Assembly: GCF_031457275.1 (NCBI RefSeq) | Contig: NZ_JAVDWH010000001.1 | Span: forward strand, 682,001-746,000 | DNA from: Aeromicrobium panaciterrae | GTDB taxonomy: Bacteria; Actinomycetota; Actinomycetes; Propionibacteriales; Nocardioidaceae | DNA length: 64,000 nt | Direction of reading: 5' to 3' | Shown here: one piece after another, positions 6,266 through 29,662 of the stretch | How positions within the stretch are numbered: position 1 is the first letter of the stretch | Layout: every line of letters starts with the position of its first letter | Notes under the pieces: model-generated | The model's input: the letters and a program-made list of their open reading frames with translations, nothing else | The model's database searches: none | Told to the model about the DNA's origin: nothing | Position numbers and translations under genes: made by a program

Positions 6266-6906
6266 ACTCGAGGAGGGCGGTCTTCGCCGAGTTCGTGGGG
6301 ACCGCCATCCTCATCATGGCCGTCGTTGGTTCTGGCATTGCCGCCCAACGACTCACGGCTGACATCGGACTCCAGCTCCTGATCAACGCCGTTGCGACGG
6401 TGCTGGCCCTCGGTGTCCTCATTGCGCTGTTCCTGCCGATCAGTGGCGCCCATTTCAACCCGGTCGTGAGCGCCGTGATGCTTGTACGCCGAGACCTGTC
6501 CGTCGGTCTCGCTGGCGCGTACGTCGTCGCTCAGGTCGCCGGGGGCGCGCTCGGCACTCTGATCTCCCACGCGATGTACGACCGATCGCTGGTCTCGACC
6601 TTCGACGGTGATCGGTCCGAAGCGGGGCTGTGGCTCGGCGAGATCATCGCCACCGCGGGTCTCGTGCTGGTCGTCCTGCTGGCATCTCGCGAGGTCGTCG
6701 CCGTGGCTGTGCCGGCCTGGATCGGCGCGGCCTACTTCTTCACTTCGTCCACGTCCTTCGCAAACCCAGCCGTGACGATCGCTCGAGCACTCACGGACTC
6801 CTTCTCGGGGATCCGTTGGGAAGACGTCCCGTGGTTTGTGCTCGCACAACTGCTGGGGGGCGCCATCGCTATCGTTCTCGCACGATCACTCAAGGAGATG
6901 CCGTGA
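6250..6906 (+). CDS. aqpS: aquaglyceroporin (MIP family), arsenic-operon type
   Basis: 218-aa channel with six hydrophobic segments and the two pore half-helix motifs GAHFNPVV and FANPAVT. In arsR-aqpS-arsC operons, such as in Sinorhizobium meliloti, the channel lets As(III), produced from arsenate by ArsC, leave the cell down its gradient; no ArsB/Acr3 pump is present here. ATG 6250 is preferred over ATG 6220, which lies inside an operator. Its stop overlaps the arsC GTG by 4 nt. The symbol is assigned by context. Confidence 0.85.
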   Translation: MRLLLNSRRAVFAEFVGTAILIMAVVGSGIAAQRLTADIGLQLLINAVATVLALGVLIALFLPISGAHFNPVVSAVMLVRRDLSVGLAGAYVVAQVAGGALGTLISHAMYDRSLVSTFDGDRSEAGLWLGEIIATAGLVLVVLLASREVVAVAVPAWIGAAYFFTSSTSFANPAVTIARALTDSFSGIRWEDVPWFVLAQLLGGAIAIVLARSLKEMP

Positions 6907-21327: not shown

Positions 21328-23855
21328 TCACCACCAGCAATGCATTCGGCACGCTTCGTGCGAATGGCGACCGTCCAGCGCTGATCACCCCCGGCAACAC
21401 GGTCACGTTTGCCGAACTCGGTGACCGCATCGATGCTGTCGGCGATGTCCTCGCGGGCGAAAAGCGCCTCGTCGTCGTCGGCGGAGCCAATACGCCAGAA
21501 GCGCTGACCGCGTACCTCGCAGCGATGTCGCATGGACACGCCGTGCTCCTCGTGCCAGGAGACAGCCCGGTCAATCTCGACTCGATCGTCGACGCGTACG
21601 ACCCGGACGTCGTTTTCGATCCGGCGCACGGCAGCTTTGTGGAGCGCCGCGAAGACTCGCGCCATGAGCTGCACCCTGACCTCGCGCTGCTCATGTCGAC
21701 ATCGGGCACGACGGGTTCGCCCAAGCTGGTCCGGCTGTCGCTCGACAACGTCGTCAGCAACGCCCGCTGCATCGCGGAGTACCTCGACATCCGTGAGGGT
21801 GATCGCGCGATCACAACCTTGCCGATGCACTACTGCTACGGACTTTCGGTGGTCAACAGCCACGTTCTCAGTGGGGCTGGCCTGGTGATCACCGACCTGT
21901 CCGTTGTCGATGAATGTCTCTGGACGCTCGCCGCAGAGGAGCAGGCCACATCGTTCGCCGGCGTGCCATACACGTTCGACCTGCTCGACTCGACGGACTT
22001 CGCCGATCGCGACCTGCCGTCCCTGCGCCACGTCACGCAGGCGGGCGGACGACTCGCTCCTGAGCGCATCGCCGCGTACGCCGAGCTCGGTCGCGAACGT
22101 GGTTGGGACTTCTACGCGATGTATGGGCAGACCGAGGCGACCGCACGGATGGCCTATCTGCCGTCGGATCTTGCTCTCGAGCGTCCTGCGGCGCTGGGCG
22201 TTCCAGTGCCCGGCGGGTCGTTCCGATTGGCCCACGTTCCGGAGTCCACGGACGACGCCGTCGGTGAGCTCGTCTACAGCGGGCCCAACGTGATGATGGG
22301 CTACGCGACTTCCCAGGCCGACCTCGCGAACGGGCCGGAGCTGAGTGAGCTGCGTACCGGCGACCTCGCGCGGCAACACGCCGACGGATCCTACGAATGG
22401 GTCGGTCGACGCAGTCGCATCTCCAAGGTGTTCGGACTGCGGATTGATCTCGACGAAGTCGAATGCGCACTGCTCGGCGAAGAGCTTTCCGCTCGGTGTG
22501 TGTCGGTGGGCGACCGCGTCCACGCATTCGTGGACTGGCACGCCGACGTCGCACATGCGCGCACAGTTGTGGCGCAACGCTGTGGTCTGCCAGAGCACGT
22601 CGTGAGTGTTGGGCGACTGCGAGACATGCCGCGCACCTCGAACGGCAAGACTGACTACGCCGCGCTTGGACGCCAGGCCCGACTGCTTGACTCGGCTGGA
22701 ACACCGGCGCGCGCATCGGACAAGTGCAGAAGCCGCCTCGACGTCGTGCGCGATATGTACGCCGAGTTGCTGGCGCGGCCCGATGCGGCACCGGGTGACA
22801 GCTTCACGAGCCTGCGGGGCGACTCCCTGTCGTACGTCGAGCTCTCCACAAAACTGGCCGGCGAAGGTATCGATCTTCCCTCGGACTGGCATCGTCGAAC
22901 GATTGCCGAGCTGGTCCAGGCGCCGTCGCGCCGTCGTCGCGGCACACGTGTGGAGATGTCGATCCTGCTGCGTGCCGTCGCGATTCTGCTGATCGTCGGC
23001 ACCCACGGCAACCTCTGGACGGTTCCTGGCGGGGCGCACTTGCTGCTCGCTGTGGTCGGCTACAACTTCGCGCGGTTCCAGCTCGGCCGAGGCGGAGTCG
23101 AGACGCTCAGGTCCGGGGTCGGATCGTTGGTGCAGCTGGCTCTGCCGTGCATGGTCTGGATCGGCGCTGTAGCGCTGGTGATCGGCACGTACGAGCCCGG
23201 CACCGTCTTCTTCCTCAACGGTTTGGTCGGCAGTGACCAGTGGACTGTCCAATGGCAGTTCTGGTTCCTCGAGGCGATCATCTGGACCCAGCTCATAGCC
23301 CTCGCCGCATTGGCGATCCCGTGGCTTCATAGGACCGAGCGTCGCTCACCGTTCATGTTTGCGATGGCGGTCTTGGTGGGCTCGCTGGCTGTCCGCTACG
23401 CCGTAACCGGCGTCGAGGCGGGAGCGACTGAGCGCTACACGCCGTTGATCGTGCTCTGGTGCTTCATGCTCGGATGGGTCGTTGCGGTCGCCCGCACCCA
23501 CCTGCAGCGGGCCGCCGTCTCGGTCCTCGCTGCTGTCGCAACGGTCGGCTTCTTCGATGACCTTCTTCGCGAAGGAGTCATTGTCGCGGGCATCCTGCTA
23601 CTGATCTGGGTGCCTGCGGTCCGCATGCCTCGGTCGGCCTCTCGAGCGGTCGGCATCATTGCGGCTGCGTCGCTCTACATCTACCTGACGCATTGGCAGA
23701 TTTACCCGTACCTCGAAGACCGCGTACCGGCGCTCGCGGTGCTGGCCTCGATCGCGATGGGCCTCGCGTACCAGTTCGCATGGAAGGGCCTGGTTGATCG
23801 GATGCGAAACCTTCGAGCTCTGTTCCAGGCGAGGACTTTCGCGGCAGTGAGTTAA
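21324..23855 (+). CDS. AMP-ligase / carrier / membrane acyltransferase fusion
   Basis: 843-aa three-part protein. Residues about 1-450 are an adenylate-forming ligase (STSGTTGSPK; YGQTEATARM; LRTGDLA; SNGKTD). Residues about 470-530 are a carrier domain with DSLSYVEL, Ser being the phosphopantetheine site. Residues about 550-840 are roughly ten membrane helices of an acyltransferase-3-like domain (RAVAILLIVGTHGN; LYIYLTHWQIYP). It would activate an acid, load it on its own carrier and transfer it across or within the membrane. The GTG overlaps fbpC, tying it to iron supply; a siderophore- or envelope-modifying role is inferred. Confidence 0.8.
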   Translation: MITTSNAFGTLRANGDRPALITPGNTVTFAELGDRIDAVGDVLAGEKRLVVVGGANTPEALTAYLAAMSHGHAVLLVPGDSPVNLDSIVDAYDPDVVFDPAHGSFVERREDSRHELHPDLALLMSTSGTTGSPKLVRLSLDNVVSNARCIAEYLDIREGDRAITTLPMHYCYGLSVVNSHVLSGAGLVITDLSVVDECLWTLAAEEQATSFAGVPYTFDLLDSTDFADRDLPSLRHVTQAGGRLAPERIAAYAELGRERGWDFYAMYGQTEATARMAYLPSDLALERPAALGVPVPGGSFRLAHVPESTDDAVGELVYSGPNVMMGYATSQADLANGPELSELRTGDLARQHADGSYEWVGRRSRISKVFGLRIDLDEVECALLGEELSARCVSVGDRVHAFVDWHADVAHARTVVAQRCGLPEHVVSVGRLRDMPRTSNGKTDYAALGRQARLLDSAGTPARASDKCRSRLDVVRDMYAELLARPDAAPGDSFTSLRGDSLSYVELSTKLAGEGIDLPSDWHRRTIAELVQAPSRRRRGTRVEMSILLRAVAILLIVGTHGNLWTVPGGAHLLLAVVGYNFARFQLGRGGVETLRSGVGSLVQLALPCMVWIGAVALVIGTYEPGTVFFLNGLVGSDQWTVQWQFWFLEAIIWTQLIALAALAIPWLHRTERRSPFMFAMAVLVGSLAVRYAVTGVEAGATERYTPLIVLWCFMLGWVVAVARTHLQRAAVSVLAAVATVGFFDDLLREGVIVAGILLLIWVPAVRMPRSASRAVGIIAAASLYIYLTHWQIYPYLEDRVPALAVLASIAMGLAYQFAWKGLVDRMRNLRALFQARTFAAVS

Positions 23856-23935
23856 TTCGCTTGGAGGAATCACCGGTCAGCACCTACCGTTGATGTCAGA
23901 GGGCAAGCCCGCCCCACATCTGAGAGGTCTCATCC

Positions 23936-24085
23936 GTGAGTACGTATCGCAGCACAGAATGCATGATCGGCTTGACAGCCGATCGTGAGCTTCGTGCTGC
24001 CTTTGCGCAGCGCGTCGGGATTGAGCCCTCGCCGGTGAACGGCAGCCACAAGCGGCTGTCCCTCGTTCAGGAGCTCCGTATGTAG
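23936..24085 (+). CDS. 49-residue ORF at the head of the tRNA array
   Basis: GTG start with GAGAGG about nine bases upstream, ending TAG at 24085. The product is polar and helical (LTADRELRAAFAQRVG) with no recognised family. Its final codons overlap a stem-loop (24076-24110) that abuts a terminator-like hairpin, the layout of a leader peptide. It may equally be a small array-encoded protein. Coding status is unproven. Confidence 0.45.
   Translation: MSTYRSTECMIGLTADRELRAAFAQRVGIEPSPVNGSHKRLSLVQELRM
23965..23984. promoter_or_regulatory. 7-bp inverted repeat around TTGACA
   Basis: GATCGGC-TTGACA-GCCGATC is a perfect palindrome inside the leader ORF. The spacer equals a consensus -35 element, but no convincing -10 follows at 16-18 nt, so an operator or RNA hairpin is as likely as a promoter. 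Confidence 0.35.
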
Positions 24086-24151
24086 GTGCATATTCGCACC
24101 CGACATACGGGCCGTTCCAGCGAGGAGACCACCTCATGGGGCGGCCCTTTT
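24076..24151 (+). promoter_or_regulatory. attenuator-like double hairpin before the tRNA array
   Basis: Hairpin 1 (24076-24110) pairs CCGTATG with CATACGG, with an inner GGTGC/GCACC. Hairpin 2 (24109-24147) pairs GGGCCG with CGGCCC, with an inner GAGG/CCTC, and is followed by TTTT (24148-24151). The two share bases 24109-24110 and hairpin 1 contains the leader ORF stop, as in transcription attenuators. Confidence 0.5.
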
Positions 24152-24171
24152 GCATGTCCAAACGCGTACGA

Positions 24172-24243
24172 ATGGGCGAAGCCGACTGGTCGAGGCAGCG
24201 GTTTCCAAAACCGCCGAAGGGAGTTCGATTCTCTCCGCCCATG
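24172..24243 (+). tRNA. array tRNA-Trp (CCA)
   Basis: Acceptor ATGGGCG/CGCCCAT, anticodon stem GCGGT/ACCGC with loop TTCCAAA, T-loop TTCGATT, discriminator G as expected for Trp. No encoded CCA. Confidence 0.88.
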
Positions 24244-24497
24244 CAAGACAACTTCATTGAGACAGGACTTCACGGGCACCGGACCCGCGAGCCAGCCGAG
24301 AGGCTGACGAGCAAAGTGGCACCGGGCTCACCGTCACAAGGCCGTGAAGAACACCATCCAGCCCAGACCCGTCAGGGAGTGGGAGCGAACTCAAGAGTGA
24401 ACAGCATCAGGCAGGCACCGGACCCGAGAGGGAGCGGCGACCTGCCAGCCGCGGTGGCCCGCTTGGAGACAAATGGGAAGCCAGCGCCGCGGCACAT
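24244..24497 (+). ncRNA. unidentified structured RNA between tRNA-Trp and tRNA-Tyr
   Basis: About 250 nt without a coding signal but with three nested stems, each containing a short hairpin with a GAGA tetraloop. (1) CTTCACGG/CCGTGAAG (24268-24275 with 24342-24349) encloses GAGCC/GGCTC and AGCC-GAGA-GGCT. (2) GGCAGG/CCTGCC (24410-24415 with 24441-24446) encloses CCC-GAGA-GGG. (3) GCCGCGGTGGC (24448-24458) pairs with GCCA and CCGCGGC (24480-24493) and encloses TTG-GAGA-CAA. GGCACCGGACCCG is repeated exactly at 24275 and 24414. I looked for tmRNA, RNase P, T-box and group I features and found none convincing. Confidence 0.6.
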
Positions 24498-24579
24498 GCG
24501 TCGGTTGGGCAATTGGTAGCCCGCTTGGCCGTAACCCAGGTCCCTTCGGGGTATGCAGGTTCGAGCCCTGCCCGGCGCA
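24498..24579 (+). tRNA. array tRNA-Tyr (GTA) with C33
   Basis: Acceptor GCGTCGG/CCGGCGC, D-stem GGGC/GCCC, long variable arm (TCCCTTCGGGGTAT), discriminator A and encoded CCA. The anticodon loop reads CCGTAAC, so the near-universal U33 is C. Confidence 0.85.
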
Positions 24580-24583
24580 CCAC

Positions 24584-24654
24584 GCCTCGCAAGCATTGCG
24601 GTGATGCTCCGGACTCTTAATCCGGAGAGCAAGGTTCGATTCCTTGGTGGGGCA
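24584..24654 (+). tRNA. array tRNA-Lys (CTT)
   Basis: Acceptor GCCTCGC/GTGGGGC with two wobbles, D-stem GCAT/ATGC, loop CTCTTAA, T-stem CAAGG/CCTTG, discriminator A. Starts one base after the tRNA-Tyr CCA. Confidence 0.88.
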
Positions 24655-24659
24655 CATAT

Positions 24660-24744
24660 GGAGGTAGTCCGGCTGGACGAGGACACCGTTTTGAAAACGG
24701 CTGGCGGTGCGAATCGCTTGGGGGTTCGAGTCCCTCTGCCTCCG
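24660..24744 (+). tRNA. array tRNA-Ser (TGA)
   Basis: Acceptor GGAGGTA/TGCCTCC, anticodon loop TTTGAAA, long class II variable arm, discriminator G as required for Ser. Confidence 0.88.
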
Positions 24745-24748
24745 CTGT

Positions 24749-24832
24749 GGATGACGATGCACCGGTGGCGGTGCGCCCGGTTGCTAACCGGGAGGCACCT
24801 CACGGTGTGTGGTTCGACTCCACCGTCTTCCG
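24749..24832 (+). tRNA. array tRNA-Ser (GCT)
   Basis: Acceptor GGATGAC/GTCTTCC with one T-T mismatch, anticodon stem CCCGG/CCGGG with loop TTGCTAA, long variable arm, discriminator G, encoded CCA. Confidence 0.85.
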
Positions 24833-24836
24833 CCAA

Positions 24837-24909
24837 GCTCTGTCGGTCCAGTGGAGTGGACACCCGCCTGTCGAGCGGAAGATCACGGGTTCGAGTCCCG
24901 TACGGAGCG
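24837..24909 (+). tRNA. array tRNA-Asp (GTC)
   Basis: Acceptor GCTCTGT/ACGGAGC, D-stem GTCC/GGAC, loop CTGTCGA, discriminator G. The chromosomal tRNA-Asp at 9053 has loop CTGTCAC. Confidence 0.9.
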
Positions 24910-24913
24910 CTGT

Positions 24914-24985
24914 GCCGTGGTGGCTGTTGGTTGCCAATTCGGACTTTCAATCCGGGCCGCGCGAGTTCGATCCTCGTCCACGGTG
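24914..24985 (+). tRNA. array tRNA-Glu (TTC)
   Basis: Acceptor GCCGTGG/CCACGGT, anticodon loop CTTTCAA, T-stem GCGAG/CTCGT, discriminator G, encoded CCA. The chromosomal copy at 28520 has loop CTTTCAC. Confidence 0.9.
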
Positions 24986-24989
24986 CCAC

Positions 24990-25061
24990 GCCTCGTTGGT
25001 CTAGCGGCAGGACGCCTGGTTCTCAACCAGGAGATGGCGGGTTCGACCCCCGCACGAGGTA
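24990..25061 (+). tRNA. array tRNA-Glu (CTC)
   Basis: Acceptor GCCTCGT/ACGAGGT, anticodon stem CCTGG/CCAGG with loop TTCTCAA, T-stem GCGGG/CCCGC, discriminator A. Confidence 0.92.
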
Positions 25062-25069
25062 CGTACGAC

Positions 25070-25138
25070 GGGGCGGGGACCGGGGTCCAAGACTTCCTTG
25101 CAAGAAGACTCCGCAGGGTTCGACTCCCTGTCGCTCCA
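25070..25138 (+). tRNA. array tRNA-Ala (TGC) with collapsed D-arm
   Basis: Acceptor GGGGCGG/TCGCTCC includes G3:U70, the alanine identity pair. Loop CTTGCAA, T-stem CAGGG/CCCTG, discriminator A. The D-arm is only GGAC-CGGG-GTCC, giving 69 nt overall. Confidence 0.82.
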
Positions 25139-25139
25139 C

Positions 25140-25213
25140 GCAGATGTAGCTCAGTTGGTTAGAGCGCGACCTTGCCATGGTCGAGGCCCCGGGTTCGAGT
25201 CCCGGTATCTGCT
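25140..25213 (+). tRNA. array tRNA-Gly (GCC)
   Basis: Canonical cloverleaf: acceptor GCAGATG/TATCTGC, loop TTGCCAT, T-stem CCGGG/CCCGG, discriminator U as in bacterial Gly, encoded CCA. Confidence 0.95.
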
Positions 25214-25217
25214 CCAC

Positions 25218-25291
25218 GCTCGCCTAGCCCAACTGGCAGAGGCGCCGGTCTCAGAAACCGGAGGATCGGGGTTCGAATCCCCGGGCGAGTA
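25218..25291 (+). tRNA. array tRNA-Leu (CAG) with short variable loop
   Basis: Acceptor GCTCGCC/GGCGAGT, anticodon stem CCGGT/ACCGG with loop CTCAGAA, T-stem CGGGG/CCCCG, discriminator A. The variable region is only AGGAT, whereas bacterial tRNA-Leu normally has a long arm. Confidence 0.88.
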
Positions 25292-25295
25292 CTTA

Positions 25296-25368
25296 CCGGG
25301 TGTAGGCCAGCGGCTAGGCCACCTGCTTTGGGAGCAGGGGATCGGGGGTTCGAGTCCCTCCACCCGGA
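25296..25368 (+). tRNA. array tRNA-Pro (TGG)
   Basis: Acceptor CCGGGTG/CACCCGG, D-stem GGCC/GGCC, loop TTTGGGA, discriminator A. Confidence 0.93.
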
Positions 25369-25369
25369 C

Positions 25370-25441
25370 TTGCCTGTCGACCAATGGTCAGGTCACCTCG
25401 CTGATATCGAGGAAACGCCAGTTCGATTCTGGCCGGGCAGA
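25370..25441 (+). tRNA. array tRNA-Ile (GAT)
   Basis: Acceptor TTGCCTG/CGGGCAG, D-stem GACC/GGTC, anticodon stem CCTCG/CGAGG with loop CTGATAT, discriminator A. It abuts tRNA-Val with no spacer. Confidence 0.9.
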
Positions 25442-25513
25442 CGGCTGGTAGCTCAGTGGCAGAGCAGCTCTCTTACAAGGAGTGGAGCGGGGGTTCGAGT
25501 CCCTCTCAGCCGA
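25442..25513 (+). tRNA. array tRNA-Val (TAC)
   Basis: Acceptor CGGCTGG/TCAGCCG, D-stem GCTC/GAGC, loop CTTACAA, discriminator A, encoded CCA. Confidence 0.92.
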
Positions 25514-25517
25514 CCAC

Positions 25518-25589
25518 GGGTCTGAGGCGTTGTAGGCGGCGCGGCCGGTTGAATCCCGGCAGGGCGAGGTTCGATTCCTCGCGGACCCA
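25518..25589 (+). tRNA. array tRNA-Phe (GAA)
   Basis: Acceptor GGGTCTG/CGGACCC, anticodon stem GCCGG/CCGGC with loop TTGAATC, discriminator A. Positions 32, 37 and 38 differ from the chromosomal tRNA-Phe loop CTGAAAA; T37 is unusual. Confidence 0.88.
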
Positions 25590-25605
25590 CTGGCCTTCGG
25601 GCGAA

Positions 25606-25678
25606 TGCTCGATAGCTCAGATGGCAGAGCGGCCGGTTGTTACCCGGATGCGCCCAGGTTCGAGTCCTGGTCGAGCAG
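25606..25678 (+). tRNA. array tRNA-Asn (GTT)
   Basis: Acceptor TGCTCGA/TCGAGCA, D-stem GCTC/GAGC, loop TTGTTAC, discriminator G as expected for Asn. Confidence 0.93.
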
Positions 25679-25683
25679 CTCAA

Positions 25684-25755
25684 TGCGGATTGGTCCAGTG
25701 GCACGGATGCCCGGCTCTGAATCGGGAGACCGAGGTTCAACTCCTCGATCCGCAG
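25684..25755 (+). tRNA. array tRNA-Gln (CTG)
   Basis: Acceptor TGCGGAT/ATCCGCA, loop CTCTGAA, T-loop TTCAACT, discriminator G as expected for Gln. Confidence 0.92.
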
Positions 25756-25775
25756 CTCAGCACGTCAAAAACCAA

Positions 25776-25843
25776 TGCGGGTGTCGGGAGACGCCATGGG
25801 TCTCATAAGCCCGTCGGTCCACGTTCAACTCGTGGCCCCGCAA
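25776..25843 (+). tRNA. array tRNA-Met (CAT) with reduced D-arm
   Basis: Acceptor TGCGGGT/CCCCGCA (one mismatch), loop CTCATAA, T-stem CCACG/CGTGG, encoded CCA. The D-arm is GTC-GGGA-GAC, giving 68 nt. Initiator, elongator or Ile-lysidine identity cannot be decided; the acceptor begins T1-A72, unlike bacterial initiators. Confidence 0.82.
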
Positions 25844-25850
25844 CCATTTC

Positions 25851-25923
25851 GCCTCGCGAGCACGACTGGCTGTGCAGCGGACTTTTACTCCGTGGGCTCC
25901 GGGTTCGAATCCCGGGCGAGGCA
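25851..25923 (+). tRNA. array tRNA-Lys (TTT)
   Basis: Acceptor GCCTCGC/GCGAGGC, D-stem GCAC/GTGC, loop CTTTTAC, discriminator A. The chromosomal tRNA-Lys at 60673 has loop CTTTTAA. Confidence 0.92.
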
Positions 25924-25958
25924 CTGTGCCACCAAACATTTGAAGGAGGTGACGGCAC

Positions 25959-26276
25959 ATGAAGAAGGAACGCAAGGAGGAGCAGTTCGCGCTGATCCTC
26001 AACACGACTGCGGTGAACGGCGCCTACGAGCACCCGACGCCGAACGTTGCATGGGCATGTGCCGGCATCGATCCGGACATGTTCTTCCCTGCCGATGATG
26101 AAGCCCTGGCAGCAGCTACCGCGATTTGCGATGGCTGCGCCGTGCGGACCCTGTGCCGCACCATCGCCATGGCTCGGGCCGAGACCGGTGTCTGGGGTGG
26201 CGTTCTCCTGGCGGAGGGCATTCCTCAGTCCGGTGTGAAGCGTCGGGGACGGCCATCCAAGATGGCCGTCGCCTGA
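25959..26276 (+). CDS. WhiB family iron-sulfur regulator inside the tRNA array
   Basis: 105-aa WhiB-like protein. The four cluster-binding cysteines are C34, C57, C60 and C66 (C-x22-C-x2-C-x5-C), followed by the GVWGG turn at 77-81 and a basic GRPSK tail that would contact DNA. GAAGGAGGT lies nine bases before ATG 25959. It sits between tRNA-Lys and tRNA-Arg on the same strand with no terminator seen, so it is probably transcribed with the array. WhiB proteins act as redox/NO-responsive sigma partners; controlling the array or an antibiotic/stress response is inference. Confidence 0.9.
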   Translation: MKKERKEEQFALILNTTAVNGAYEHPTPNVAWACAGIDPDMFFPADDEALAAATAICDGCAVRTLCRTIAMARAETGVWGGVLLAEGIPQSGVKRRGRPSKMAVA

Positions 26277-26283
26277 CCGTGCA

Positions 26284-26317
26284 GGCTGCGCGCGAAAGGG
26301 ACTCGGTCCCAGCAGCC
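26284..26317 (+). other. stable hairpin between whiB-like gene and tRNA-Arg
   Basis: GGCTGC (26284-26289) pairs with GCAGCC (26312-26317), enclosing GGGAC-TCG-GTCCC. No U-tract follows. It may be a processing signal or a remnant of a tRNA; function unknown. Confidence 0.45.
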
Positions 26318-26321
26318 ACCT

Positions 26322-26393
26322 ACGCTCGTGGTCCAGAGGACACGACGCCGGCCTACGAAGTCGGAGACGGAGGTTCGATTCCTCCCGAGCGTG
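26322..26393 (+). tRNA. array tRNA-Arg (ACG)
   Basis: Acceptor ACGCTCG/CGAGCGT, anticodon stem CCGGC/GTCGG with loop CTACGAA (A34 would be inosine), discriminator G. D-stem has three pairs. Confidence 0.88.
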
Positions 26394-26395
26394 CT

Positions 26396-26466
26396 GTGTC
26401 CGTGGTGTAGCGGCAGCACATCTCCTTGTGACGGAGACGGCGCCGGTTCGAATCCGGTCGGACACC
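26396..26466 (+). tRNA. array tRNA-His (GTG) without encoded G-1
   Basis: Acceptor GTGTCCG/CGGACAC, D-stem GTGT/GCAC, loop TTGTGAC, discriminator C as required for His, encoded CCA. The base at position -1 (26395) is T, where bacteria normally encode G. Confidence 0.88.
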
Positions 26467-26469
26467 CCA

Positions 26470-26542
26470 GCCGGTGTAACTCAGTGGCCAGAGTGCCTCT
26501 CTCGTAAAGAGGAAGTCGAGAGTTCGACTCTCTCCACCGGCT
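26470..26542 (+). tRNA. array tRNA-Thr (CGT)
   Basis: Acceptor GCCGGTG/CACCGGC, anticodon stem CCTCT/AGAGG with loop CTCGTAA, T-stem GAGAG/CTCTC, discriminator T. It begins on the base after the tRNA-His CCA. Confidence 0.93.
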
Positions 26543-26546
26543 CGAT

Positions 26547-26617
26547 GCGGATGAAGTGTTGTGGCGGCACGCGGGCGTTCCATGTCCGAGGAGCGAGTTC
26601 GATTCTCGTCATCCGTT
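26547..26617 (+). tRNA. array tRNA-Gly (TCC)
   Basis: Acceptor GCGGATG/CATCCGT, anticodon stem CGGGC/GTCCG with loop GTTCCAT, discriminator U as in bacterial Gly. Confidence 0.87.
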
Positions 26618-26620
26618 CCG

Positions 26621-26689
26621 GCCTCCAGTAGTGGATCTACCGCCCGGCGTCCGAAGCCGGACTGCCTGGTTCGAGTCCAGGTGGAGGCA
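26621..26689 (+). tRNA. array tRNA-Arg (CCG) with reduced D-arm
   Basis: Acceptor GCCTCCA/TGGAGGC, anticodon stem CCGGC/GCCGG with loop GTCCGAA, T-stem CCTGG/CCAGG, discriminator A. D-arm GTAG-TGGAT-CTAC follows the acceptor directly. Confidence 0.85.
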
Positions 26690-26735
26690 CGTTCAAGAGA
26701 TACATCAACGATCAATCAACAGAAGGAGGTGGCCC

Positions 26736-27929
26736 ATGGCCACGACATTTCCAGTTGCGCTCGAGGGCGCAGGAGCCGAGACGCTCATGTGGGCCTCGCC
26801 CGAAGAGGTGGAGAGCGCTGCTCTAGACCAGCTGCGCAACATCTCTCGGCTGCCATGGGTCCACGGGCTCCGTGTCATGCCGGACGTCCACCTCGGCAAG
26901 GGCGCAACGGTTGGCTCGGTGGTTGCGATGAAGAACGCCGTGTCGCCAGCAGCTGTTGGCGTCGACATCGGCTGCGGCATGCAGGCAGTTCTGACGGACT
27001 TGTTTGTTGCCGACCTGCCCGATGACCTGGGCGCTCTTCGTGCTGCGGTCGAGGCGACGATTCCGGTCGGCTTCTCGGCTCACGAGAGTGCACCCGACAC
27101 CGGTGTAGGTGTCGGTTGGGATGCGTTCTGGGCGGGCTTCCGCGACCTTCACCCTGGTGTGCAAGACCGTGAGTCGCGGGCCATGAAGCAGATGGGAACG
27201 CTCGGAGGTGGCAACCACTTCATCGAGCTCACCGTCGATGGCGATGGTCGAGTGTGGCTGATGCTGCACTCGGGTTCGCGCAACATCGGCAAGGAGGTCG
27301 CCGAGCGACACATCAACGGAGCCAAGGGTTTGGAGCACAATCTCGATCTGCCAGATCGTGATCTGGCTGTGTTCCTCGCTGGAACTCCGCAGATGGATGC
27401 CTACCTGCGCGACTTGTACTGGGCGCAGGACTACGCAGCGCGCAATCGTGCCGTGATGATGGCTCTGTTCCAGGGAGTGGTCCGTGAGTACTTCGGTCGT
27501 TTGGGCCGCGAGGTCTCATTTGGCGAGCAGGTGAGTGCGCACCACAACTACGTCAGCGAGGAGACGTACGACGGCGTGGACCTGATCGTCACCCGCAAGG
27601 GGGCGATCTCGGCGAAGTCGGGCGAGTATGGCCTGATCCCCGGTTCGATGGGAACGGGCTCCTATGTCGTGCGGGGACTGGGCAACACCCAGAGCTACTG
27701 CTCGGCGTCGCATGGCGCGGGACGGCGTATGTCGCGGACAAAGGCGCGCAAGACATTCACCGTCGAAGATTTGGTTGCACAGACAGCCGGTGTCGAGTGC
27801 CGCAAGGACGTCGGCGTCGTCGACGAGATCCCGGGCGCCTACAAGTCGCTCGAGGCAGTGATGGAGGCGCAGACCGACCTCGTAGAGGTGGTCGCTCGTC
27901 TCCAGACGTTGATGTGCGTCAAGGGATGA
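26736..27929 (+). CDS. rtcB: RtcB-type 3'-phosphate RNA ligase
   Basis: 397-aa GTP-dependent RNA ligase joining 2',3'-cyclic phosphate (or 3'-phosphate) ends to 5'-OH ends, the ends left by many anticodon nucleases. Metal-site residues are visible: D77 and C80 in GVDIGCGM, H161 in GGGNHFIEL, H178 in HSGSRNIG, H270 in HHNYV. H326 in SASHGAGRRMSR is the expected GMP-accepting histidine. AGAAGGAGGT precedes ATG 26736. It follows tRNA-Arg(CCG) by 46 nt on the same strand. No archease, PrfH or RtcR gene is nearby; its genetic partners are the tRNAs. Confidence 0.95.
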   Translation: MATTFPVALEGAGAETLMWASPEEVESAALDQLRNISRLPWVHGLRVMPDVHLGKGATVGSVVAMKNAVSPAAVGVDIGCGMQAVLTDLFVADLPDDLGALRAAVEATIPVGFSAHESAPDTGVGVGWDAFWAGFRDLHPGVQDRESRAMKQMGTLGGGNHFIELTVDGDGRVWLMLHSGSRNIGKEVAERHINGAKGLEHNLDLPDRDLAVFLAGTPQMDAYLRDLYWAQDYAARNRAVMMALFQGVVREYFGRLGREVSFGEQVSAHHNYVSEETYDGVDLIVTRKGAISAKSGEYGLIPGSMGTGSYVVRGLGNTQSYCSASHGAGRRMSRTKARKTFTVEDLVAQTAGVECRKDVGVVDEIPGAYKSLEAVMEAQTDLVEVVARLQTLMCVKG

Positions 27930-27959
27930 ACCGTTTCAACTAGTGAAAGGAGGTTGACG

Positions 27960-28406
27960 GTGAGTACTCAAGTAGCGCTCCTGAACGCCTCCTACGAGCG
28001 ATTGGGCAGCGTGCCGTTCAAGCACGCTGTCCGGATGCTCTTCCGCGAGGTCGCAATTGTTGAGGAGGGACGGGCCGATCGCATGATCGGCCCGCATCCA
28101 TGGCCGAGTGTGATTCGGCTGGTGCGGTACGTCGCTGCGAAGTGGCTCTATCGAGATGCAGCTTGGTCTCGTCAGAACCTGCTTCAACGCGACCGGCACA
28201 AATGCGCGTACTGCGGAGGTCGCGCCGAGACGGTCGATCATGTTCTGCCCGCCTCGCGCGGTGGCCTTTGGGAATGGATCAACACCGTCGCGGCATGCGA
28301 GCGGTGCAACAACCGCAAGGGTGACCGCACGCCGACCGAAGCGGGTATGCCGCTGCGGTTCAGTCCGTACGTACCGACGCGCGCCCAGTTGGCAGCACTC
28401 GACTGA
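27960..28406 (+). CDS. HNH endonuclease
   Basis: 148-aa HNH nuclease. The core is C82-x2-C85, D93-H94, N108, C113-x2-C116-N117-N118-x-K120, with zinc cysteines flanking the HNH fold. The N-terminal 75 residues (ALLNASYERLGSVPFKHAVRML) are typical of stand-alone actinobacterial and phage HNH proteins. GTG 27960 follows AAAGGAGG by six bases. It lies between rtcB and tRNA-Cys, same strand, so it is part of the island. It could be a mobility enzyme or a nuclease effector. Confidence 0.9.
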   Translation: MSTQVALLNASYERLGSVPFKHAVRMLFREVAIVEEGRADRMIGPHPWPSVIRLVRYVAAKWLYRDAAWSRQNLLQRDRHKCAYCGGRAETVDHVLPASRGGLWEWINTVAACERCNNRKGDRTPTEAGMPLRFSPYVPTRAQLAALD

Positions 28407-28425
28407 GGCGCGTGTCGGTGCGCTG

Positions 28426-28496
28426 GTTCTTGTGGCCGAGAGGCAAGGCGACGGCCTGCAAAGCCGTAGACACCGGTTCGAATCCGGTCAGGAACT
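28426..28496 (+). tRNA. array tRNA-Cys (GCA)
   Basis: Acceptor GTTCTTG/CAGGAAC, anticodon stem ACGGC/GCCGT with loop CTGCAAA, T-stem ACCGG/CCGGT, discriminator U as required for Cys. It completes the set of 20 amino acids and lies 19 nt past the HNH gene. Confidence 0.93.
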
Positions 28497-28519
28497 CGAA
28501 GTTGGCGTTGAAACTTTGG

Positions 28520-28592
28520 TACCCCCAACGGGATTCGAACCCGTGCTACCGCCGTGAAAGGGCGGCGTCCTAGGCCGCTAGACGATGGGGGC
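28520..28592 (-). tRNA. tRNA-Glu (TTC), chromosomal
   Basis: Canonical 73-nt cloverleaf, acceptor GCCCCCA/TGGGGGT, anticodon loop CTTTCAC. Opposite strand to the array and far closer to typical actinobacterial tRNA-Glu, so it marks the right edge of the island. Confidence 0.97.
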
Positions 28593-28659
28593 CAGAAAAC
28601 CAGTCCAGCATAGTGGGTGAGCAAGGTGGCTCCCAAACCGGATCGGGCAGGATGGAGGC

Positions 28660-29010
28660 ATGGTCGAGATCAGCGAGGATCGGTTCGCCGAGCTCGTCGA
28701 GGCCGCATTCGCTGCGGTACCGGCTGAGTTGGCTGCGCTGCTCGACAATGTCGTGCTGTTCATCGAGGATGACGCGCCAGCCGACGAGCCCGATCTGCTC
28801 GGTTTGTACGACGGGATCCCGCTCACGGAGCGCGACAGTACGTACGGCGGCGCCATGCCGGATCGCATCTTCGTCTACCGCAACCCGACGCTGGCGATCT
28901 GCGACACCGAGGCGGACGTGATCGAAGAAGTAGGCATCACGGTGGTGCACGAGATCGCGCACCATTTCGGTATCGAAGACGATCGACTGCATGAGCTCGG
29001 TTATGCGTGA
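28660..29010 (+). CDS. zincin-like metallopeptidase family protein
   Basis: 116-aa member of the minimal metallopeptidase (MMPzincin/DUF1025) family. The active-site segment HEIAHHFGIEDDRLHELG gives the HExxH zinc motif and a third ligand. The N-terminal half (YDGIPLTERDSTYGGAMPDRIFVYRNP) is characteristic. Substrate unknown. Its stop overlaps the start of the pirin gene. Confidence 0.88.
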   Translation: MVEISEDRFAELVEAAFAAVPAELAALLDNVVLFIEDDAPADEPDLLGLYDGIPLTERDSTYGGAMPDRIFVYRNPTLAICDTEADVIEEVGITVVHEIAHHFGIEDDRLHELGYA

Positions 29011-29662
29011 GATCCGCCGCGCCGACGAGCGCTACCAAACCGACGGTGACGGGGTGATGACCCGGCACAGCTTCTCGTACGGTGCGCACTACGACCCCGA
29101 CAACATCGGATTCGGACCGCTGATCGCGATCAACACCGAGACCATCGACCCGGCGGAGGGCTACGACCAGCACCACCACGCTGATGTCGAGATCGTGACC
29201 TGGGTTCTTGAGGGCGTTCTGATGCATGCCGACTCGACCGGTCATCGCGGAGTGGTCCGCCCTGGCACGGCGCAACGACTCAGCGCAGGCACCGGCGTGC
29301 AGCACACGGAGCAGAACGCCTCGCAAGATGAGCCGCTCGTCTTCGTACAGATGATGCTGCGGTCGTCGTATGACGCCAAACCGGAGTACGTCGACGCCGT
29401 GGTCGAGCCTCGTGGGCTGACACCTGTGATCGGCGTCCATGCGGCGGCAGAACTGTTCGTCGTTCGACTCGCAGCAGGCGACTCGATCACCGTGCCAGCC
29501 AGCCCGAGGAGCCTTGTCCACGTCACGAAAGGCTCGATCCGGCTCGATGACACCACTCTGACCGGCGGCGATGAGGCGCGTCTGACGGACGAACGCGCGT
29601 ACGATCTGAGTGCTGCCGAAGACGGTGGCGAAGCACTGATCTGGCAGCTGGGGAGCTCATGA
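29003..29662 (+). CDS. pirin family protein
   Basis: 219-aa bicupin with the pirin N-terminus [11 protein letters not shown] and [11 protein letters not shown]. The metal-site pattern is [18 protein letters not shown], then [12 protein letters not shown]. Bacterial pirins are iron-binding proteins, some with quercetinase activity. ATG 29003 is chosen to match the family N-terminus, giving an 8-nt overlap with the upstream gene; ATG 28991 is possible. Its end overlaps aroQ. Confidence 0.88.

Follow-up and report, generated by a model that had tools for sequence, protein, structure and literature searches.

The tRNA array units described from mycobacteria, phages, and plasmids are dense clusters of around 20 isotypes that are redundant with the tRNA genes of the chromosome and commonly contain an HNH gene (PMC5966550, PMC6515697). 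They are defined by a high number (19–39) and density of tRNA genes, and the role of large bacterial tRNA arrays is still debated (PMC6515697). Here, we describe an array of this kind, with 25 tRNA genes in 4.3 kb and thus within that definition, in Aeromicrobium panaciterrae (contig NZ_JAVDWH010000001.1, positions 682,001 to 746,000; this whole stretch of 64,000 nucleotides is called the window below). Its tRNA genes enclose genes for a WhiB7-like regulator, an RtcB-family RNA ligase, and an HNH-domain protein, and we propose with a probability of roughly 0.7 that all of these form one operon under a predicted ribosome-stalling attenuator that would release replacement tRNAs together with tRNA repair.

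Amino-acid operon attenuators such as trp have leader peptides that are rich in the amino acid in short supply. They control the biosynthesis of one amino acid, whereas the output here would be tRNAs and the leader spans up to 20 amino acids. Closer in build is the leader attenuator of whiB7/wblC, in which an upstream open reading frame (uORF) precedes a rho-independent terminator, an AT-rich box lies 3 nt before the -35 element, an antiterminator overlapping uORF and terminator has been proposed, and the WhiB protein carries an AT-hook (PMC10727445). The window has counterparts of these elements, with a weakly pairing candidate for the antiterminator, but differs in its output of a tRNA array and RtcB, in a leader that follows the amino acids of the array, and in a WhiB protein without the EPW motif. 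RtcB and tRNA genes are also found together in single phage genomes (PMC3203893), though the window locus is chromosomal, has its own predicted attenuator, and holds a full tRNA set. Another relative in kind is the trn operon of Anabaena, whose 26 tRNA genes are silent until translational stress: this operon and rtcB are repressed by TrcR, and rtcB and HNH genes are raised in a trcR mutant (PMC10272220). Unlike the window, Anabaena uses a protein repressor and has a plasmid-borne array with rtcB elsewhere on the chromosome (PMC10272220); by analogy, we regard it as an independent case of coupling between a tRNA operon and rtcB. From the mycobacterial array units, the window differs in isotype order, judging by the one mycobacterial plasmid array compared (L254; L and G numbers denote loci and genomes), and PMC5966550 mentions neither RtcB, WhiB, a leader, nor a promoter.

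None of the components, i.e., leader attenuator, WhiB7, tRNA array, and RtcB, is new by itself. In the open-licence literature, neither an attenuated tRNA array nor an array-matched leader turned up among the titles listed, nor did anything on tRNA arrays of Nocardioidaceae or anything relevant joining whiB7 and rtcB, and only the Anabaena work (PMC10272220) was found to link a tRNA array with RtcB. If true, the arrangement proposed here would be a new mechanism by which cells monitor their translation machinery and replenish it, and would join three fields studied apart, i.e., the antibiotic response of the WhiB7 type, RtcB-based RNA repair, and spare tRNAs as protection from anticodon nucleases. 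It would also provide a sequence rule to predict what a tRNA array protects against, and polling by the leader would make the idea concretely and cheaply testable.

The array is a second, strongly diverged tRNA set

An earlier note on this DNA had described 25 co-oriented and tightly packed tRNA genes for all 20 amino acids. ARAGORN indeed found exactly this number in the window, all on the + strand between 24172 and 28497 and serving every one of the 20 amino acids; from 5' to 3' they read W Y K S S D E E A G L P I V F N Q M K (whiB) R H T G R (rtcB, HNH) C. The gathering score of the Rfam tRNA model was reached by 19 of them in a scan of the window and by 20 in a scan of the genome, where Glu-TTC was gained. 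The two Ser genes matched the Sec-tRNA model alone, under its cut-off, and the Ala, Met, and Arg-CCG genes had no match by the tRNA model, so that we consider these five the least certain.

The genome (G000) is one contig of 2.82 Mb, and its Rfam scan returned 66 tRNA matches including 46 outside the array. The comparison with all tRNAs of the genome that the earlier note had suggested (ARAGORN, 34 genome stretches plus four window genes) gave 45 tRNA genes outside the array, and every array anticodon is present among them; the array is therefore fully redundant. Its genes are not recent copies because their global identity to the best host isoacceptor is 54–74% and the 7-nt anticodon loop is unlike that of the host isoacceptor in 21 of the 25, with the anticodons being the same. 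The array is a second, redundant, and strongly diverged tRNA set for 20 amino acids, with which 41 of 61 codons would be readable by ordinary wobble (75.6% of the 4003 codons in eleven window genes).

A pattern of three close T-loops matched in 59 of 341 genomes of the family and led to further arrays, so that twelve family array loci could be examined (the window, L156, L162, and L244–L252). Across the 11 related genomes, tRNA order is largely colinear with losses, insertions, and a few exchanges, e.g., Asp ahead of Ser in L247 or Lys-CTT in L162 at the place of the window's Lys-TTT; such homologous arrays exclude that the array arose by chance. The number of tRNA genes is 29 in L245, 24 in L246, 11 in L162, and 4–8 in the remainder, and among the 12 arrays an AT-hook whiB is present in 8, an HNH gene in 7, and rtcB in 3.

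The unusual anticodon loops bear on the defense idea of the earlier note, which named toxin or phage attack: the array would serve specifically against anticodon nucleases of phages, toxins, or rivals, with spare tRNAs made uncuttable by their altered loops and RtcB mending the rest. Phage tRNAs have been proposed to escape nucleases through loop changes (PMC10264068), and RtcB was proposed as protection against tRNA cleavage by the authors of work on mycobacteriophages (PMC3203893). However, the loops may differ simply because the whole tRNAs are diverged to 54–74% identity, 21 out of 25 being a raw count. The anticodons themselves are unchanged and only three of the twelve family arrays contain rtcB. 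We treat nuclease defense, which is compatible with an attenuator, as a tentative reading.

An attenuator-like leader precedes the array

While its description of the array and the genes therein stood, the earlier note had overlooked a leader ORF, a terminator, and a WhiB7-type promoter upstream of the array (Table 1). The promoter is predicted to be of the type activated by WhiB7/WblC: in a scoring register one or two bases on from that in Table 1 (TAATTC, GCT, TGGAGG, 17 nt, TACCGT), it agrees with 11 of 13 positions of the published WblC consensus GAAAWY-N3-TKGMNN-N16..19-TANNNT (PMC7157823), compared to 8.9 for shuffled sequences (p 0.03). Further downstream, a uORF and then a rho-independent terminator in the style of a whiB7 attenuator are present as sequence and fold, and the 126-nt stretch spanning the hairpins reaches -59.3 kcal/mol (z -5.25 vs shuffles). 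A generic scan reported no promoter and did not have the leader terminator among its entries.

We propose that the promoter would be activated by binding of WhiB7/WblC. In a healthy cell, the ribosome would reach the leader stop and cover the GGAGC strand, so that the hairpin could terminate transcription. With a tRNA absent, cleaved, or uncharged, or under inhibition of the ribosome, the latter would stop earlier in the leader, and GGAGC could then pair with the 5' arm of the hairpin so that transcription enters the array, a step that is best supported in relatives. The array would supply tRNAs with mostly non-host anticodon loops, possibly resistant to nucleases, while RtcB would rejoin cleaved RNA and the WhiB7-like protein would strengthen the response. 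A stall for any listed amino acid would thus cause transcription of exactly the relieving tRNA genes. Candidates for the natural trigger of the window operon are a nuclease, a drug, or starvation. In M. abscessus, whiB7 is the most induced transcript upon cleavage of tRNA-Ser by VapC5, for which the authors invoke ribosome stalling and the uORF (PMC10287673).

The locus might instead be an ordinary member of the WhiB7/WblC regulon for ribosome-targeting antibiotics, with a leader acting as general stall sensor and tRNAs that merely aid translation under drugs. The WblC regulon of Streptomyces shares this promoter consensus and includes 6 tRNAs and aminoacyl-tRNA synthetases (PMC7157823), and leaders of whiB7 detect ribosomes stalled by drugs (PMC10727445). 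A WblC-type promoter is found at p ≤ 0.05 in 16 of the 21 array leaders scored, and the promoter match of the window fits this reading, too. Yet a general stall sensor predicts neither the match of leader and array composition described below nor a resident RtcB, and we see this explanation as possible rather than probable.

The same leader layout as in the window precedes the arrays of relatives as well as whiB-rtcB operons without an array. In Aeromicrobium (L120–L125), it is found before whiB-rtcB operons with one or no tRNA, at L155 and L159–L161 before rtcB with few or no tRNAs, in Terrabacter and Intrasporangium before HNH-whiB-rtcB operons, and in Micromonospora before rtcB. Over 23 such leaders scored for promoter and pairing, which include near-identical ones, the promoter score is 10.96 of 13 compared to 8.17 for shuffled sequences, and the distance from leader stop to terminator is 15–32 nt. 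The GGAGC strand is present in 18 of 19 aligned family leaders (alignment A1), where it lies 11–22 nt ahead of the stop and is complementary to the 5' arm of the terminator; L245 has a second copy at 25 nt, and L162 has GGAAC opposite GTTCC instead. It stands in a different codon phase in L120 and L121, which argues for selection on the RNA. All 10 terminator pairs are kept in each of the 14 leaders analyzed for pairing (alignment A2, i.e., A1 without L121, L160, L161, L162, and L246), four of them varying one-sidedly within pairing rules. Micromonospora leaders carry GGGGTGG opposite CCATCCC.

Table 1. Features of the array and its upstream region (window positions).
Feature	Position	Strand	Evidence
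Predicted WhiB7/WblC-type promoter (AT-rich TTAATT, CGC, TTGGAG, 18 nt, TACCGT)	23852..23890	+	sequence, consensus score
Leader ORF, 49 codons, 19 of 20 amino acids (Trp missing)	23936..24085	+	sequence; same layout in relatives
Proposed antiterminator strand GGAGC, 13 nt ahead of leader stop	24070..24074	+	invariant in 14 A2 leaders; pairing weak in window
Hairpin across leader stop codon	24078..24107	+	fold
Intrinsic-terminator-like hairpin, TTTT tail, directly 5' of first tRNA	24109..24151	+	fold; conserved in relatives
tRNA-Trp, opens array	24172..24244	+	ARAGORN
Conserved structured RNA, ~150 nt, tRNA-Trp/tRNA-Tyr spacer	24255..24403	+	consensus fold, no Rfam match
18 tRNA genes (Tyr, Lys, Ser, Ser, Asp, Glu, Glu, Ala, Gly, Leu, Pro, Ile, Val, Phe, Asn, Gln, Met, Lys)	24498..25924	+	ARAGORN
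WhiB7-like regulator with C-terminal AT-hook RGRPSK	25959..26276	+	Pfam WhiB, 49.7 bits; alignment
5 tRNA genes (Arg, His, Thr, Gly, Arg)	26322..26690	+	ARAGORN
RtcB-family RNA ligase, sole rtcB of genome	26736..27929	+	Pfam, 398.9 bits
HNH-domain protein	27954..28406	+	Pfam
tRNA-Cys, closes array	28426..28497	+	ARAGORN

Leader peptides follow the content of their arrays

Leaders were assigned by a rule that ignores composition and asks for a terminator fold, a leader stop 10–35 nt before it, and a Shine-Dalgarno match of at least 3 nt. It was applied to 37 arrays that are not a random sample: the 12 family arrays, loci from 20 genomes (chosen by hand via match number and sequence among the 99 that matched the pattern when 393 genomes across the class were scanned), and 4 plasmid loci, leaving out clusters of fewer than three tRNAs (L155, L253, L267) and the duplicate L264. 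A leader was found before 23 of the 37 arrays, compared to 18 of 250 random windows of the same loci. Outside the 10–35 nt limit were L277 (where the "leader" is the end of rtcB), L244 (where the automatic choice was wrong and the true leader was added by hand), L254, and L276. No leader was found by the rule for L245, L246, L247, L256, and L265 (found by eye), for L255 (none seen, phage-like), or for L269, L273, L275, and L279. The six leaders identified by eye (L244–L247, L256, and L265) were used only in one combined automatic and manual test row.

In several actinobacterial families, the leader of a tRNA array is enriched in the amino acids that this array serves, as is expected if each leader polls what its array refills. 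Among the 23 leaders, the share of residues within the own array's amino acids is 0.704 compared to 0.591 when leaders are exchanged between loci (P < 5e-5, 20000 permutations), and 90.7% of the array amino acids occur in their own leader compared to 78.3% after swapping. The residue match shows no enrichment in the other two frames (0.543 vs 0.544, P 0.54; 0.585 vs 0.593, P 0.75). It persists in small arrays serving at most 7 amino acids (14 loci), in larger arrays (9 loci), and when pieces of equal length are compared. Inside lineages, P is 1e-4 (frequency); between 8 lineages, it is 0.00005 (frequency) and 0.00045 (presence). Each of the 20 amino acids is commoner in leaders whose array has the matching tRNA. 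Matching at the codon level, where 0.745 of leader codons are read by the own array compared to 0.699 by the arrays of other lineages, was dropped as an argument. The related arrays L257 and L262 differ in having tRNA-Ala or tRNA-Val, and their leaders are Ala-rich and Val-bearing, respectively. The fullest family arrays have the most complete leaders with 19 amino acids in the window, 20 in L245, and 19 in L246 (the latter two by eye). Leader diversity had also been considered as the sole argument but was too weak and was replaced by the array-matching test.

The idea itself came from L256–L258 and from five loci with diverse leaders (the window, L245, L246, L155, and L156). The 23-locus test includes four of these loci (the window, L156, L257, and L258), and none is among 13 loci fetched after the idea arose. 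For these 13, the match is 81.6% vs 70.5% (P < 5e-5), with P = 0.00175 across 6 lineages and agreement for 17 of 20 amino acids. The leader rule was written after inspection by eye of the DNA upstream of L259–L267, and its 10–35 nt limit was set after the peptides were known. When this limit is dropped, the match is 0.656 vs 0.560 for 27 loci, or 0.632 vs 0.555 when the longest ORF is taken rather than that with the best Shine-Dalgarno match, and choosing the shortest ORF leaves it standing, too. For 15 held-out loci under altered rules it is 0.719 vs 0.639, or 0.698 vs 0.637 with the longest ORF, with P ≤ 0.00035 under the alternatives tried. Loci within a lineage are not independent, and the lineage tests have n = 8 and 6 with lineages drawn by similarity of leader and tRNA order, without a tree. 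On balance, we favor the view that actinobacterial tRNA arrays are self-matching operons in which the leader lists, like a menu, the amino acids served by the downstream tRNAs and in which arrays and leaders co-evolve; the window would be a full form with a WhiB7-like amplifier and RtcB.

The whiB, rtcB, and HNH genes and their link to tRNA arrays

An RtcB ligase, a WhiB-like protein, and an HNH nuclease inside the array had already been named in the earlier note, and all three have Pfam matches. RtcB is full-length with positions 1–426 of the Pfam profile covered, and its conserved DxxC and HGAGR motifs, which we take to be active-site motifs, align with those of TTHA1785; it remains under the NCBIfam equivalog cut-offs. 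The WhiB protein has the four cysteines and the G[IVL]W[GA]G turn (translation, Pfam, and alignment to 7kif) as well as a C-terminal RGRP AT-hook in the form KRRGRPSK. WhiB7 is its best match among solved structures (E 2.9e-10, compared to 5.5e-6 for the next kind). The genome has 7 WhiB matches, of which the six others lack the RGRP motif, and the one further AT-hook motif match of the genome lies in an unrelated frame near another whiB. In PADLOC, the HNH protein resembles PtuB only weakly, and we claim no defense system from this.

Rtc​B of the window type is encoded in 21 family genomes, five of them with partial or broken copies. A same-strand tRNA gene lies no more than 2.5 kb upstream in 12 of these 21 genomes, whereas none of the 14 loci examined for the other rtcB type, out of 103 further genomes with a match, has one. 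The suggestion of the earlier note that replacement and repair form one unit gains from this association and from redundant, diverged tRNAs, as replacements should be, but a fixed pairing of array and rtcB is not supported, with rtcB in 3 of the 12 family arrays examined. A search for rtcB near at least 10 tRNAs, also proposed in that note, came back empty for the 80 named relatives of the window rtcB (up to 8 kb on each side); rtcB inside an array was found in the family, where 3 of 12 arrays have it, and on viral contigs. Among 20 viral contigs with rtcB, some have the gene inside or beside tRNA clusters, the fullest two being L083 with 27 and L090 with 36 tRNAs.

As a separate observation, window-type rtcB is partial, split, or duplicated in five Nocardioidaceae genomes (L163–L167 in G161, G209, G110, G312, and G122), and a single tRNA-Arg lies directly upstream of the damaged gene in G161, G209, and G312. 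The viral contig L090 also has a lysozyme-like reading frame (by eye).

Observations that weigh against a single attenuated operon

Several results speak against the proposed operon. Five of the 25 tRNA genes, i.e., those named above, are under the Rfam tRNA cut-off, and most of the family arrays examined are without rtcB. The window leader has no Trp although tRNA-Trp heads the array, and its diversity by itself is marginal (P = 0.047). Its proposed antiterminator is GGAGC with GTTCC alone (one G-U), and shuffled sequence does as well as the best pairing there. In a free-energy test, the antiterminator reached p ≤ 0.03 in 5 of 23 leaders, three of which are from Micromonospora with the same segment, and the window is not among them. 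GGAGC or a variant is missing in 7 of 32 leaders, mainly of the Terrabacter/Intrasporangium group. The terminator is without double-sided covariation in alignment A2, where none was counted because its four varying pairs change on one side only. The rule finds no leader before 14 of the 37 arrays, some leaders of relatives are not diverse (12 amino acids in L247, 16 in L162) whereas that of the array-less rtcB locus L120 has 18, and coverage in frame +2 also reaches P = 0.038. The WhiB protein lacks the EPW motif beside the turn that is given as WhiB7-specific (PMC10727445), with ETGVWGG in the window and EWGVWGG or ESGVWGG in relatives, and is therefore called WhiB7-like rather than WhiB7. 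The phage relatives of the array proteins, taken up next, count in the same direction.

Origin of the array

The array could also be a decaying remnant of a phage or plasmid tRNA cluster that was kept by chance, with the leader as a relic. The whiB, rtcB, and HNH proteins have relatives among phage protein families (PHROGs), so that the parts may have come long ago from a phage or plasmid. The viral contigs with rtcB inside arrays of 27 (L083) and 36 tRNAs (L090), the arrays carried by actinobacterial plasmids, and the array erosion and broken rtcB copies seen in relatives would fit such a remnant as well. However, leaders and terminators are intact while tRNAs are lost, and the leaders track tRNA content. 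No phage structural gene was found in the ten proteins scanned between 18681 and 31452 except for a weak terminase-small-subunit match of the HNH domain; the flanking genes match transporter or unknown families only, and the absence of an integrase observed in the earlier note was confirmed for these ten proteins (PHROGs). The downstream flank, composed of tRNA-Glu and five genes with 71–89% protein identity, is shared with the eroded locus L244 of G022, which keeps only part of the array and lacks rtcB; the same search did not find the window's upstream genes at that locus. We thus deem a chance remnant unlikely.

Two more specific origins were considered and dropped. No repeat in 23800–29100 fits an att-site duplication of the convergent host tRNA-Glu (28517–28592), and a plasmid or phage origin by DNA similarity found only small pieces among the matches listed, none of which covers 80% of the query in one place.

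Structured spacer RNA and further loci

A spacer RNA near the array start is found in 7 of the 12 family arrays (the window, L156, L162, L245, L246, L248, and L249). In its consensus fold, 10 of 37 pairs are changed on both sides in at least one sequence. A model built from these seven recovered the same seven only in 293 family genomes, though strict filters can lose weak matches. Likeness to RNase P was considered and rejected with no such Rfam match at E ≤ 10.

At the place in L162 where tRNA-Met is expected, a frame with zinc-finger/HNH-like cysteines (6300–6880, by eye) is followed just 3' by a tRNA-Met-like sequence, possibly a homing-type gene insertion into a tRNA. The Mycolicibacterium alvei plasmid pJCM12272 (L254) carries a 28-tRNA array and an HNH protein 44% identical to that of the window; its upstream DNA has a long ORF plus an AT-rich box with TACCGT behind it, which may be a leader of the same kind missed by the leader rule. 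L277 (G362), from a different family, has another rtcB (63% identical) with tRNAs Q R W G E N directly behind it at a contig end. In L008 (Phycicoccus metagenome-assembled genome), tRNA-Arg lies between the leader ORF and rtcB, and its 5' end can pair with a stretch just upstream as if the tRNA start itself were the 3' arm of a terminator hairpin (by eye). Finally, the Rhodococcus loci L043, L071, and L074 have a lone tRNA-Val and a terminator-like hairpin directly 5' of rtcB.

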